From Cyanobium sp. CACIAM 14 (GTDB lineage: Bacteria > Cyanobacteriota > Cyanobacteriia > PCC-6307 > Cyanobiaceae): DNA of 40,264 nucleotides. The stretch is taken from contig JMRP01000025.1 in assembly GCA_000708525.1 (NCBI GenBank), positions 1 to 40,264 on the forward strand, written 5' to 3'. Each line of letters opens with the position of its first letter. The first letter of the stretch is position 1. Shown here piece by piece: positions 3,334 to 7,786 of the stretch. Position numbers and translations under genes: made by a program. The notes beneath the pieces are model-generated. The model was not told the origin of the DNA, did no database searches, and was given only the letters and a program-made list of their open reading frames with translations.

Positions 3334-5148
3334 CTAGACCGGTGCCTCGGTCCCCTGGGCCGTGTGGCGCAGGGCGCCCCCCAGCCCGAAGGCCCGGTGC
3401 ACCGCCTGCAGGGCGGGAACACCGTCGGCCTCCGCCACCACGCAGCTGGTGCGGATCTCGCTGGTGGCGATCAGGGCGATGTTGATGCCCGCATCGGCCA
3501 GGGCGCGGAACATCCGCGCCGCCGTGCCGGCGGTGCAGGCCATCCCGGCGCCCACGGCGCTGACCCGGGCGATGGCGGGGCCCTCCTCGAAGCCGGCGCC
3601 GTCCCAGTGGCGCAGGATCGGAGCCAGGGCCCGCTCGGCCCCGGGCCGGTCGTTGCGCCGGAGCGTGAAACTCATGTCACGGCACCGGTCCTCGGGGCCG
3701 CCGTGGGTGCGCTCCGACTGCACGATCGCATCCAGGCTGATGCCGGCGTCCGCCAGGGCCCGGCAGATGGCTGCGGCGCTTCCGGGCCGGTCGGGCACCC
3801 CTCGCACGGACACCTGCACCTGATCCCGGTCGAGGGCCACTCCCCGCACGGCCGGATCCCCCAGGTGGCAGGGAGGGGGGTCGTGGCGCAGCTGCTGGTC
3901 GGAGAGCTCGAACGCCTCGCCGGCGGCCCTCAGGGCCCTGGCCCCCTGCTGGCCGTCCACCACGCAGCTCACCTTCACCTCGCTGGTGGCGATCAGCCGC
4001 AGGTTGATGCCCAGGCGGGCCAGGGTGTCGAACAGGCGCGCCGCCACCCCCGGCCGGCCCAGGATGCCTGCGCCCGAGATGCTGAGCTTGGCCATGCCGG
4101 CTTCCGCCGTCAGCCGGGCCCCGTCCGCGCCCATGGCGTCGAGCACCTGCCGGCACACCTGGCGGGCGGCTTCCATCTCCGTCGCCGCGAGGGTGAAGGC
4201 GATGTCGTTGCTGGCCCCCTCGTGGATGGCCTGCACGATCAGATCCACGTTCAGCCCGGCGGCGCCGAGGGCCTCGAACAGCGTGGCGGCCACCCCGGGC
4301 CTGTCGGGTACGTGGGAGAGGGCCAGCACCGCCTGGTTCTGCTCGAGTTCGGCCCCGTCCACGGGGCGGCCCAGCTCCAGCCCCTCGCTGCCGATGGGGC
4401 GGGCCGGACCGCTGGTGAGCCGGGTGCCGGGTGCATCGCTCCAGCTGGAGCGGACCGTCAGCGGCACCCCGTAGTTGCGGGCGATCTCCACGGCCCTGGG
4501 GTGGAGCACCGCGGCCCCGAGGCTCGCCAGCTCCAGCATCTCGTCGCAGCTGACGCTCTCCATCAACTGGGCGTCGCTGACCTTGCGCGGATCGGTGGTG
4601 AGCACGCCGGGCACATCGGTGTAGATCTCGCAGCCGTCGGCCGCCAGGGCGGCCGCCAGGGCCACCGCGGAGGTGTCCGAGCCCCCCCGCCCCAGGGTGG
4701 TGATCTCCGGGGTGCCGGCCTGGCCGCTGCTGGTGCCCTGGAAGCCCGCCACCACCACCACGTAGCCCTCGTCGAGCAGGCGACGCAGCCGCTCGGTGCG
4801 CACCTCCAGGATCCGGGCCCGGCCATGGGCGGATTCGGTGATGATGCCCGCCTGCGTGCCGGTCATCGAGACGGCGGGCACCCCTTCGGCATGGAGGGCC
4901 ATCGACAGCAGGGCGATCGACACCTGCTCGCCGGTGGCCAGCAGCATGTCCATCTCCCGGCGGGGGGGATCGCTGCAGAGACTGGCGGCCATGCAGGTGA
5001 GCTGGTCGGTGGTGTGCCCCATGGCCGACACCACGATCACCAGTTCATGGCCCTCCTCGCGGCTGGCGGCGATCCGCCGGGCCACCGCGCGGATCCGCTC
5101 GGTGTCGGCCACCGAGGTCCCCCCGAACTTCTGAACCAGCAGGGCCAT
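3334..5148 (-). CDS. lysC: Aspartate kinase with duplicated ACT-domain pairs
   Basis: A 604-residue aspartate kinase. It phosphorylates L-aspartate as the committed step to lysine, threonine and methionine, in the cytosol. The kinase domain (about 1-250) has KFGGTS at 7-12, the LATGEQ segment at 70-75 and GRGGSDTS at 153-160. The remaining 350 residues hold a series of ACT regulatory modules, recognisable by repeated segments such as PGVAA, LNVDLIVQ, INLRLIATSEVKVSCVV and INIALIATSEIRTSCVV; two copies of the pair are present. This doubled ACT arrangement is typical of cyanobacterial enzymes and fits feedback control by lysine and threonine (family knowledge). The start is ATG at 5148. holA ends 29 bases upstream on the same strand, so co-transcription is likely. 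Confidence 0.95.
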   Translation of the reverse strand: MALLVQKFGGTSVADTERIRAVARRIAASREEGHELVIVVSAMGHTTDQLTCMAASLCSDPPRREMDMLLATGEQVSIALLSMALHAEGVPAVSMTGTQAGIITESAHGRARILEVRTERLRRLLDEGYVVVVAGFQGTSSGQAGTPEITTLGRGGSDTSAVALAAALAADGCEIYTDVPGVLTTDPRKVSDAQLMESVSCDEMLELASLGAAVLHPRAVEIARNYGVPLTVRSSWSDAPGTRLTSGPARPIGSEGLELGRPVDGAELEQNQAVLALSHVPDRPGVAATLFEALGAAGLNVDLIVQAIHEGASNDIAFTLAATEMEAARQVCRQVLDAMGADGARLTAEAGMAKLSISGAGILGRPGVAARLFDTLARLGINLRLIATSEVKVSCVVDGQQGARALRAAGEAFELSDQQLRHDPPPCHLGDPAVRGVALDRDQVQVSVRGVPDRPGSAAAICRALADAGISLDAIVQSERTHGGPEDRCRDMSFTLRRNDRPGAERALAPILRHWDGAGFEEGPAIARVSAVGAGMACTAGTAARMFRALADAGINIALIATSEIRTSCVVAEADGVPALQAVHRAFGLGGALRHTAQGTEAPV

Positions 5149-5177: not shown

Positions 5178-6176
5178 TTATCGGCGGGTAGGGTTCGCGG
5201 GTTCTGCCAGGGCGGCCAGCAGGAACCCATCCCGGAAGGCGTCGCCGGGGTCGGAGCCCCGCTTGAGGGCGGCCTCCACGTCCAGCAGGCGGCGCAGCAG
5301 GGCCAGCAGCTGGTCGGGGGTGCGTCCGCGGATCTGCTTGCGCATCACGTAGATCCGCCTGGGATTGCCGATCCCCGCCGCCCTGGCGATCACGGCCACG
5401 TCCTGCTCGCCGCTGCGCTCCAGCAGGCTCACCCACAGCCAGCCCCGGATCTGACTGGCCAGGGCCGCCACGATGCGCAGGGCGGGCTCGCCCGCCGCCA
5501 GCAGGGCCTCCACCAGGGCGATCGCTTCGGCGGGTCGCTGGGCCAGCAGGGCTTCCCCCACCGCCAGACTGCTGGTGACCTGGCCGCCGATCAGGGCGGT
5601 GACCGCCTCCGCCGTGATCGGGCCACCGCCGGGGCCGGCATGGAGGGCCAGTTTCTCCAGTTCGCTGGCCAGCCGCATCCCGTCGCTGCCGATCGCCGTC
5701 GCCAGGGCCTCGGCCGCCCCGGGAGCCAGCGCGAGGCCCCGGTCGCGGGCGGCGCTCTCCACCCGCTCGAGCTGGCCCGCCCCGTCCCAGACCGGTGGCA
5801 GGGGGAAGCCCTGCTCCTCGGCCACGGCCCGCAGCAGCTTGGTGGTGCGCAGCCGGGCGTCGGGCTTGGTGTCGCTGAGCAGGAACAGATGGACGTCGGC
5901 GGGGATCAGGCCCAGGGAGGCCTCCAGCTGGCCCGCCAGTTCCGCCGGACAGGCGTGACAGAAGGGACTGCGCTGCAGCACCACCACCCGGTCCCCGGTG
6001 CCGAAGGGGGCCGTGCGCGCCTCCTGCAGGGCCTGGGCCGCCTGGCCCGGATCGCTGCCGTCGAGGCGGCTGAGGTTGATCGAGGCCCAGGCCGGATCCA
6101 CCAGGGCTTCGATCCGGGTCGCCAGGGCCCGGCTGCGGGCGGCCTCATCGTCGCCCCAGTAGAGGTGGATGGGCAT
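5178..6176 (-). CDS. holA: DNA polymerase III subunit delta
   Basis: A 332-residue delta subunit of the clamp loader, which opens the beta sliding clamp during DNA replication. The N-terminus (MPIHLYWGDD) and the segment LAVGEALLAQRPAEAI followed by IRGWLWVSLLE match the layout of cyanobacterial HolA, and the length fits the family. Delta lacks ATPase motifs, and none is seen here. The ATG at 6176 overlaps the stop of the upstream Phd-PIN gene (TGATG), which suggests translational coupling, and lysC follows 29 bases downstream. A plausible operon is Phd-PIN, holA, lysC, which would place a replication gene under whatever controls the Phd-PIN promoter (inference). Confidence 0.88.
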   Translation of the reverse strand: MPIHLYWGDDEAARSRALATRIEALVDPAWASINLSRLDGSDPGQAAQALQEARTAPFGTGDRVVVLQRSPFCHACPAELAGQLEASLGLIPADVHLFLLSDTKPDARLRTTKLLRAVAEEQGFPLPPVWDGAGQLERVESAARDRGLALAPGAAEALATAIGSDGMRLASELEKLALHAGPGGGPITAEAVTALIGGQVTSSLAVGEALLAQRPAEAIALVEALLAAGEPALRIVAALASQIRGWLWVSLLERSGEQDVAVIARAAGIGNPRRIYVMRKQIRGRTPDQLLALLRRLLDVEAALKRGSDPGDAFRDGFLLAALAEPANPTRR

Positions 6177-6859
6177 CAGCGCAGGGGAGGGTGCGACGGC
6201 AGCGGCAGGGCGGCGAGCAGCCGGAGGTCCTGGCTGATCATCGCCGTGGCGCCGCCATGGAGGGCCGAGGCCAGTTCCAGGGCGATCTCGGGCTCCATCG
6301 TCGCCGGGGTGCCGGGCCGCTGCAGGCGCGCCGCCGCCAGAGCCACCTGGGGGGTGAGGCTCACCAGGGTCCAGGCCGCCGGATCGCTGAACACAGCCTC
6401 GTAGCGCGCCGCCAGGACTTCGTCCCCCTGGCGGAGCGGGCCCTGCACCAGCGTCATCAGGGTGCGCATGCTCAGGACGCCGCGCCAGCGGCCGGCGGCG
6501 ATCGCCTCGATCATGGGCTCCTGGTGGCGGCTGGAGGCGTCGCCGCGCAGGTAGGGAATCAGCGCCGTGGCGTCGATCGCCACGGCCGACCCGAGCGCCA
6601 GGCCGGCTCTGCTGCCCCCCAGGGGCTGGATCGGCCCGGTGGTGCCGGCCTGCTGCCGCGGGGCCCCAGGCCAGCAGGCGCGTCCGCTGCCCTTGAGACC
6701 GAGCAGGGCCTGGCGCCGGGGACGGTGGCGCTGTGCGAGGGGGACCAGGGCGGCCACCGGGTGGCCATGACGCGAGATCAGGGTCTCCTCGCCCTCATGG
6801 GCCCGGTCGAGCAGTTCGGGGAAGCGCCGCCTCGCCTCGAGCACCCCGAGGGTCTCCAT
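6176..6859 (-). CDS. Fused Phd/YefM-type antitoxin and degenerate PIN-domain protein
   Basis: A single 227-residue reading frame. Residues 1 to about 41 match a Phd/YefM antitoxin DNA-binding domain (METLGVLEARRRFPELLDR, then ISRHGHPVAALVPL). A basic, glycine-rich linker spans about 42-92. Residues about 93-215 match a VapC-like PIN domain beginning VAIDATALIPYL. PIN nucleases use four acidic residues. D96 and D211 (ISQD) are present, but the glutamate of the TLxE motif is T136 (TLMT), and the aspartate expected before the LASAL helix is missing (E191/I192 there). Toxic RNase activity is therefore doubtful, and the protein may work mainly as a repressor (inference). The stop overlaps the holA start. 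A palindrome with two TGTACA cores lies 24 bases before the ATG. Confidence 0.75.
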   Translation of the reverse strand: METLGVLEARRRFPELLDRAHEGEETLISRHGHPVAALVPLAQRHRPRRQALLGLKGSGRACWPGAPRQQAGTTGPIQPLGGSRAGLALGSAVAIDATALIPYLRGDASSRHQEPMIEAIAAGRWRGVLSMRTLMTLVQGPLRQGDEVLAARYEAVFSDPAAWTLVSLTPQVALAAARLQRPGTPATMEPEIALELASALHGGATAMISQDLRLLAALPLPSHPPLR

Positions 6860-6882: not shown

Positions 6883-6901
6883 CCTGTACATTATGTACAG
6901 G
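6883..6901. promoter_or_regulatory. Perfect 9+1+9 palindrome with two TGTACA cores, probable Phd-type operator
   Basis: CCTGTACAT, one central T, then ATGTACAGG: a perfect inverted repeat, 24 bases upstream of the Phd-PIN start codon. TGTACA occurs at 6885-6890 and 6894-6899. Phd/YefM antitoxins are known to bind palindromes with a TGTACA core, so an autoregulatory operator is the natural reading. The site also lies about 200 bases before cobH on the other strand, so control of both directions is possible. Confidence 0.65.
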
Positions 6902-7057
6902 CACCAATTTGCGCCACTGTTTCGAATTTGCGCCAGTGAAGGCATTCCCGGGGCGGGCTTGCTGGGTGCCGGCCTTCCGGAGCGCATGGCCACGCCCAGG
7001 GCCAGCTCCACCTCGGCGGGCGGTGCATCCCGTAGCCTCGGCGTTTCCCGTCCCGGT

Positions 7058-7105: not shown

Positions 7106-7786
7106 ATGGACCGCTTCGATTCTTCTCCCGAGCGCACGTCGTGCGACGTCGATGCGGCGCTCGACCACCCGATCTTCCGCGAGAGCGTGCGGCGCATCCG
7201 CGGCTGGCTCGGCGACACCGGCCTTGAGGGGGTCGAGCGGGAACTGCTGGAACGGTTGGTGCACAGCAGCGGCGATCTGAGCCTGGCACCGGATCTGCGC
7301 TTCAGTCCGGGGGCCTGCGCGGCCGGCATGGCGGCCCTGGCGGCCGGGGCGCCGATCCTCACCGACACGGCCATGGCGGCCGCGGCCGTCGCCCCGATGG
7401 CCCGGCGCACCTTCGCCAATCCGGTGCGATCGGTGCTGGAGGTGGCCCCGGCCGTGGCGCCACCGGGCGGCACCCGCGCCGCGGCAGGCATGGCCCTGGC
7501 CCTGGCGGCGTACCCGGGGGCCGTGGTGCTGGTCGGCAGCGCCCCCACGGCCCTGGAGCGGCTGCTGGAGCTGACGGCCGCCGGGACCGTGCCCGCCCCG
7601 GCCCTGGTGATCGGCATGCCGGTGGGCTTCGTGGGCGTGGCCGAAAGCAAACGGCATCTTGCCGCCAGCACGCTTCCCCAGATCCGGCTGGAGGGCAGCA
7701 AGGGGGGAGCCGGCCTGGCGGCCGCGGCGGTCAACGCCCTGCTGCGCCGCGCCTGGCTGGATCAGGCGGCACGGGAGCGGCCCTGA
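7106..7786 (+). CDS. cobH: Precorrin-8X methylmutase
   Basis: A 226-residue CobH/CbiC enzyme of cobalamin synthesis. It moves the methyl group from C-11 to C-12 of precorrin-8X to give hydrogenobyrinate (or the cobalt analogue). Family segments visible include [13 protein letters not shown] (20-32), RLVHSSGD with the candidate active-site H53, the [12 protein letters not shown] region, and the C-terminal glycine-rich [15 protein letters not shown] and GSKGGAG motifs. The frame is open further upstream, but the ATG at 7106 gives the normal family length and an N-terminus close to the first conserved segment. The last 25 bases overlap the 3' end of mutS on the other strand. A GC hairpin lies in the leader. 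Confidence 0.9.

Follow-up and report, generated by a model that had tools for sequence, protein, structure and literature searches.

A single-chain Phd-PIN protein encoded beside holA in picocyanobacteria: a toxin-antitoxin module possibly converted into an autorepressor

Introduction

The route by which selfish toxin-antitoxin modules turn into host genes like any other is unsettled, and clear intermediates are scarce. In ordinary modules, as described in PMC4803016, the antitoxin binds the operator, the toxin usually acts as co-repressor, and in several of them the ratio of the two is the signal. The window analysed here is a stretch of 40,264 nucleotides from Cyanobium sp. CACIAM 14 (assembly GCA_000708525.1, JMRP01000025.1, positions 1 to 40,264, forward-strand numbering throughout). 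Directly before holA it carries one reading frame that joins a DNA-binding domain of antitoxin type to a PIN domain of toxin type. Is such a chain still a toxin-antitoxin system, or has it become a regulator of the genes that follow it? With modest confidence, we favour the second answer: a toxin-antitoxin module that became an autorepressor in one piece, acting on the operon it forms with holA.

Results and discussion

One frame, two domains

The genes of the locus and the parts of the fused chain are as follows.

6176..6859, minus strand: single-chain Phd-PIN gene, ATG start, 227 aa plus stop (open reading frame, Pfam/NCBIfam profiles and fold)
6725..6859, minus strand: Phd/YefM DNA-binding domain, aa 1-45 (PF02604, 1.9e-9; VIA-align Z 7.6 with VapB46; AR.RxPEL motif)
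6596..6724, minus strand: linker, aa 46-88, basic then Pro/Gly-rich, containing LKGSGRACW (dN/dS about 0.9 in the genus clade)
6194..6595, minus strand: VapC-like PIN domain, aa 89-222 (fold match and residue comparison)
5178..6176, minus strand: holA, DNA polymerase III delta subunit (TIGR01128, 7e-43)
3334..5148, minus strand: lysC, aspartate kinase (NCBIfam aspartate kinase, 4.5e-275), starting 29 nt past the holA stop
7106..7786, plus strand: cbiC-like gene, precorrin-8X methylmutase family, divergent neighbour conserved in relatives

The stop of the Phd-PIN gene (TGA, 6178-6176) shares one base with the ATG of holA (6176-6174), an overlap that the first-pass annotation had already noticed. 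lysC is likely the next gene of the Phd-PIN/holA transcription unit and, given the gap of only 29 nt, may be co-transcribed with holA. For the cbiC-like gene the best NCBIfam model gives 5.8e-52 and 176 bits, under the model cut-off of 264.

The same annotation had read the frame as a Phd/YefM domain, a linker and a PIN domain, and the open reading frame, the profiles and the fold all bear this out. The Phd similarity on which that reading depended is present in profile searches (aa 1-42; Pfam PF02604, 1.9e-9; NCBIfam phd_fam, 2e-8). That of the PIN half is weak, aa 94-213 scoring 0.061 with PF01850, under the Pfam cut-off. We therefore relied for this half on structure prediction and superposition on VapC, as had been suggested. 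The AlphaFold model of the 227-aa chain, built on a 33-sequence alignment, reached a pLDDT of 87.4 and a pTM of 0.76; it was used in place of a model made with 13 close rows, whose pLDDT was 55.6. VIA-align places 120 residues of aa 92-220 on VapC15 with Z 11.9 and rmsd 2.5, and aa 88-220 on VapC11, again with Z 11.9. Thus the predicted VapC-type fold makes the identity of the C-terminal half firm where Pfam alone stays below threshold. The N-terminal half superposes on the DNA-binding N-terminal part of VapB46 (6jqy; aa 1-42, Z 7.6, rmsd 1.2) and on Phd (4zlx; Z 6.9). Its residues R10 and R30 align with conserved Phd arginines and may be the counterparts of R10 and R31 of YefM, given as required for DNA binding in PMC4803016.

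The single chain is widespread and fixed beside holA

The search covered 60 relatives, 386 phylum genomes and 400 family genomes. In the latter two sets no more than a few candidates were scored in each genome, and absence there is not proof. Of the 400 family genomes, 45, spread over six genus groups, encode the complete single chain; one of these assemblies has two copies, which gives 46 fused rows. Orthologues, which the first-pass annotation had proposed to look for beside holA, are found there, and the chain always stands directly upstream of it. The carriers that one scan could name, at 13 loci, are records of Cyanobium, Synechococcus, Aphanothece and Microcystis elabens, plus an uncultured genome. 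Outside the family, no full-length relative appeared among the few candidates scored per genome in the 386 phylum genomes, and a tblastn search for plasmid relatives gave no match.

holA lies directly downstream in all 53 loci with a PIN match, and the distance from the end of the fused gene to the holA start varies from -16 to +52 nt across the fused rows. A divergent cbiC-like gene borders the opposite side in 52 of these 53 loci, the exception being G527, near a contig end; lysC follows in 47 of 53 within the flanks examined. Same-genus relatives without the gene also exist: in several that were read by eye cbiC abuts holA, and in others different genes intervene. In addition, four remnant copies are found in different lineages (G009, G548, G539 and G571). 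The gene is thus dispensable.

The fused PIN domains share a degraded active site

The codons of the PIN residues compared, all on the minus strand, are listed below.

6572-6574, minus strand: D96
6452-6454, minus strand: T136
6284-6286, minus strand: I192
6275-6277, minus strand: E195
6227-6229, minus strand: D211

In the window protein D96 and D211 are kept, T136 replaces the expected E and I192 the expected D. Among the full-length orthologues of the genus (n=13, window included) D96, T136, E195 and D211 are invariant. The earlier statement that two of the four PIN acids are lost holds for the intact copies of this genus. Family-wide it does not, the set of lost acids being variable and only the third being lost in every fused copy.

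The residue counts cover the 46 fused rows; the four remnants, three two-gene copies (see below) and a copy truncated at a contig end are set aside. The third acid is retained in 0 of the 46, and in all three two-gene rows as well as in three aligned unrelated control PINs of the genus; comparing holA-adjoining orthologues thus shows a degraded site common to the fused copies. The first acid is D in 43 rows and E in 3. At the second site R stands in 23 rows, T in 16, E in 3 (G578, G599 and G612) and some other residue in 4. Half of the rows (23) keep D at the fourth site, where 17 have H, 5 have N and one has Q.

Position 195 is acidic throughout the fused rows (E in 44, D in 2), whereas PINs of the two-gene copies and the controls have Q or H there. 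This derived residue (window 6275-6277) sits about one helical turn past the lost third acid. Its role may be structural, or a contact with the linker arginine (R60), or that of a displaced acid.

Since position 195 is acidic in 46 of 46 rows and three copies keep the second acid, some residual or altered PIN activity is conceivable. In its strongest form the PIN half would be a metal-dependent nuclease whose third acid has shifted from D192 to E195, kept in check by the Phd half of its own chain, as in EzeT-like modules. The near constancy of the first acid, the joint presence of acids at 96, 136, 195 and 211 in some fused copies (G612, G500) and the purifying selection on the domain (see below) all point that way. 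However, R or T has taken the place of the second acid in 39 of the 46 rows, and in 23 the fourth has given way to H, N or Q; we consider this reading improbable. Because the acids are degraded, it is also unlikely that the PIN half would be active once freed of the antitoxin part.

Both domains are maintained by selection

We calculated dN/dS as Nei-Gojobori medians over pairs that are not independent. For the genus clade (15 genomes) the values are 0.18 for Phd, 0.91 for the linker, 0.28 for PIN and 0.18 for holA. Two other clades (8 and 7 rows) give 0.18 and 0.11 for PIN, 0.12 and 0.09 for holA, and 0.16 and 0.21 for the linker, so that in these the linker is constrained too. By these ratios the Phd and PIN domains are under purifying selection.

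This bears on the idea that the gene is a decaying remnant, kept only for the promoter that drives holA, with a protein that does little. The four remnants in different lineages and the tight end-to-start coupling with holA are what such decay would leave. But the frame is open in 45 genomes of six genus groups, the dN/dS of Phd and PIN is well below 1 and near that of holA, unlike that of a dead remnant, and the DNA-binding motif AR.RxPEL is retained in 46 of 46 fused rows. Of the explanations considered we give this one the least weight, and regard it as very unlikely.

A two-gene form occupies the same locus

At the same locus, three of the 400 family genomes encode Phd and PIN separately; these are G421, whose genome is complete, G527 (completeness 78%) and G573. 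Their Phd and PIN frames overlap or stand six bases apart. All three retain the four PIN acids and an antitoxin tail with the pattern LR..W, which is found in 3 of 3 two-gene copies and in 0 of 46 fused ones. By analogy with ordinary antitoxins, this tail would be the part that holds the toxin.

The first-pass annotation had named two-gene orthologues with a full set of acids as the finding that would betray a sequencing error in the window. Such orthologues do exist, but the conclusion drawn from them does not follow: an equal single frame in 45 genomes excludes sequencing error, and likewise recoding, as its source.

As outgroup for a PIN tree we took three of the four unrelated PIN toxins found in the genus; the four remnants and the copy truncated at a contig end were left out. 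The 46 fused copies form one clade (100/94), and the three two-gene copies fall outside it in a group of their own (98/69). This separation suggests that the fusion probably arose once. The two-gene copies, presumably of the ancestral type and persisting at the same locus, are scattered across the holA tree, which was made by a quick method.

The pair G573 (L137, intact) and G557 (L132, fused) allows a closer comparison. Their flanks are 90% identical on the cbiC side and 97% on the holA-lysC side, and the cassette between them is only 45-68% identical in 60-base steps. Near-identical flanks around a divergent cassette suggest either that whole cassettes have been exchanged at the holA locus or that both forms are old and have been retained.

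Intact and fused forms are thereby alternative occupants of one locus, and it could be asked whether the fused form serves as an anti-addiction allele, its Phd-bearing protein letting a lineage shed or resist the intact module. The G573/G557 comparison and the scatter of two-gene copies on the holA tree are both in keeping with this. Nevertheless, the LR..W tail is missing from every fused copy, so neutralisation in trans is doubtful, and we hold such a function to be unlikely.

A conserved palindrome precedes the gene

6883..6901, no strand: 19-bp palindrome CCTGTACATTATGTACAGG with two TGTACA boxes spaced by 9 bp, a presumed operator

TGTACA is the operator core of YefM, with boxes 12 bp apart in E. 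coli YefM-YoeB (PMC7730913), against 9 bp in the Phd-PIN palindrome. We scanned 200 nt before the Phd domain in the 52 loci that have one. The palindrome is present with 0-1 mismatch in 42 and with at most 2 in 47, the five others having more than 2 within the 200 nt; control stretches of equal length from the same loci gave 0-1 mismatch in 4 of 757. The two-gene copies carry it with 1-2 mismatches, suggesting that it probably predates the fusion. A consensus scan detected no sigma-70-type promoter at the palindrome.

Beside the palindrome, at 6906-6938 of the window, are two 14-nt direct repeats, AATTTGCGCCA(C/G)TG, 19 nt apart.

From module to autorepressor

From the observed fusion, synteny, losses of acids and tail, palindrome conservation and purifying selection, the following course of events can be proposed. 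A picocyanobacterial ancestor would have had a canonical two-gene Phd-VapC module between cbiC and holA. It would have lost the stop between the genes, the toxin-holding tail of the antitoxin and the third metal-binding acid of PIN, and the single chain would then have spread, or been inherited, at this one locus. In the fused protein the toxin function, that is the RNase activity, would be gone. Its Phd half would still bind the TGTACA-N3-TGTACA palindrome upstream of the gene, and its PIN half, as a partner that never leaves, would act as co-repressor as toxins do in ordinary modules. With the two halves fixed at 1:1, repression would no longer depend on the toxin:antitoxin ratio. There would be no ratio signal, and autorepression of constant strength would keep the operon with holA, and probably lysC, at a steady level. 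Several observations weigh against this scheme: the five loci with a poor match to the palindrome, a box spacing unlike that of YefM-YoeB, the consensus scan that detected no sigma-70-type promoter, the dispensability of the gene, and the acids retained at position 195 and, in three copies, at the second site. The first-pass annotation had suggested conversion into a repressor controlling holA and lysC. This reading is partly supported: the fused, partly disarmed and conserved module coupled to holA and its conserved Phd/YefM-type operator bear it out, while repression of either gene would be a further, putative step.

A more specific version is that a domesticated "locked complex" repressor sets the level of holA, a component of the replication clamp loader, while sharing its locus with intact, presumably toxic alleles exchanged by recombination. 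This we put forward tentatively, as a possibility somewhat short of even.

The retained DNA-binding half and its mostly retained target suggest that in many picocyanobacteria a selfish module has turned into a gene switch. As intact pair, disarmed fusion and remnants all occur at one syntenic site beside a replication gene, the path can be read stepwise. For annotation, a gene labelled "Phd antitoxin" or "PIN toxin" at the holA site of a picocyanobacterium is probably not part of a working toxin-antitoxin system.

Comparison with known systems

The Phd-PIN chain resembles two-gene Phd/YefM-VapC modules (VapB46/VapB5-type antitoxins, VapC15/VapC11-type toxins) in the fold of the Phd N-terminal part, the PIN fold and the TGTACA boxes. 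It differs from them in being one chain, without tail and without the third acid, fixed beside holA. In terms of class, the locus has the Phd/YefM domain, the PIN-fold domain and a palindrome (putative operator) before the operon; it lacks the two genes, the four PIN acids and the C-terminal antitoxin tail of a type II module; and it has toxin and antitoxin domains within one chain, as in the single-chain type of EzeT.

Three fused systems invite comparison. In the single-chain Phd-RelE of Ralstonia eutropha a Phd antitoxin is likewise joined to a toxin, and neither toxin activity nor inhibition is thought to survive (cited in PMC4826407). That is one case mentioned, with a RelE-type toxin, whereas Phd-PIN forms a conserved family with a constant location and a palindrome in front of it. 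The E. coli protein EzeT is a zeta toxin with an N-terminal antitoxin domain in cis (PMC4826407, PMC4803016). The order of domains is the same, but the EzeT toxin is active and inhibited, while the active site of Phd-PIN is degraded. Slr1999 of Synechocystis is likewise a fused toxin and antitoxin in a cyanobacterium, of other families (HicA-HicB), and the account in PMC4963859 reports no fused homologue elsewhere. At the level of titles and starts of abstracts, we found neither a conserved Phd-PIN chain nor a holA-linked one described. Fused toxin-antitoxin chains are thus already known, and a conserved Phd-PIN chain tied to holA is apparently new.

Dispersed palindromes do not support a wider regulon

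Of the 400 family genomes, 42 contain perfect copies of the palindrome, CTGTACANNNTGTACAG, 1-10 in each (e.g. L148:1509, L145:1535, L155:1559, L226:1534); 31 of the 42 also have the fused gene. At least two copies, own site included, are present in 28 of 45 fused genomes and in 4 of 347 gene-less ones, i.e. genomes without copy, remnant or cut end. The four are G062 (in the assembly of which no holA locus was located), G582, G592 and G622. Within genus group g31 no clear link appears between the fused gene and palindrome copies.

In the window's genus, 11 of the 15 fused genomes have a site located 218-280 nt upstream of thiC, and so does G062. This site is absent from G000, G002, G004, G025 and the remnant-bearing G009, and from all seven gene-less relatives scored (40 genomes matched, giving 30 loci; 6 more unscored loci lacked an identified start).

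We considered 96 palindrome places, which are part of all sites and include the own site among some, with gene calls made from codon G+C alone. Fifty-nine of them are intergenic by these calls, with a called gene on either side: 21 between convergent genes, 28 between tandem genes and 10 between divergent ones. Many places are shortly past a stop codon. Given this mostly convergent or tandem placement and the frequent closeness to stop codons, a wider regulon of the Phd-PIN protein is not supported and we do not claim one. The dispersed copies fit better as 3'-end elements or a dispersed repeat than as promoter operators. The genome of the window also speaks against a regulon: in its 3.2-Mb assembly (96.6% completeness) the core TGTACAN3TGTACA of the gene's own palindrome is the sole exact occurrence, and one further place matches with one mismatch.

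Other modules near holA

In G421 (L091, minus strand) a second toxin-antitoxin-like pair was seen by eye past holA, from about 419 down, and lysC was not matched in the flank examined there. The gap upstream of holA may be a favoured site for toxin-antitoxin modules. In G019 (L030, minus strand), an unfused two-gene pair of another type stands between the cbiC-like gene and holA; its Pfam values are 1.5e-10 for Phd and 8.4e-15 for PIN, and by eye it has the usual acids.
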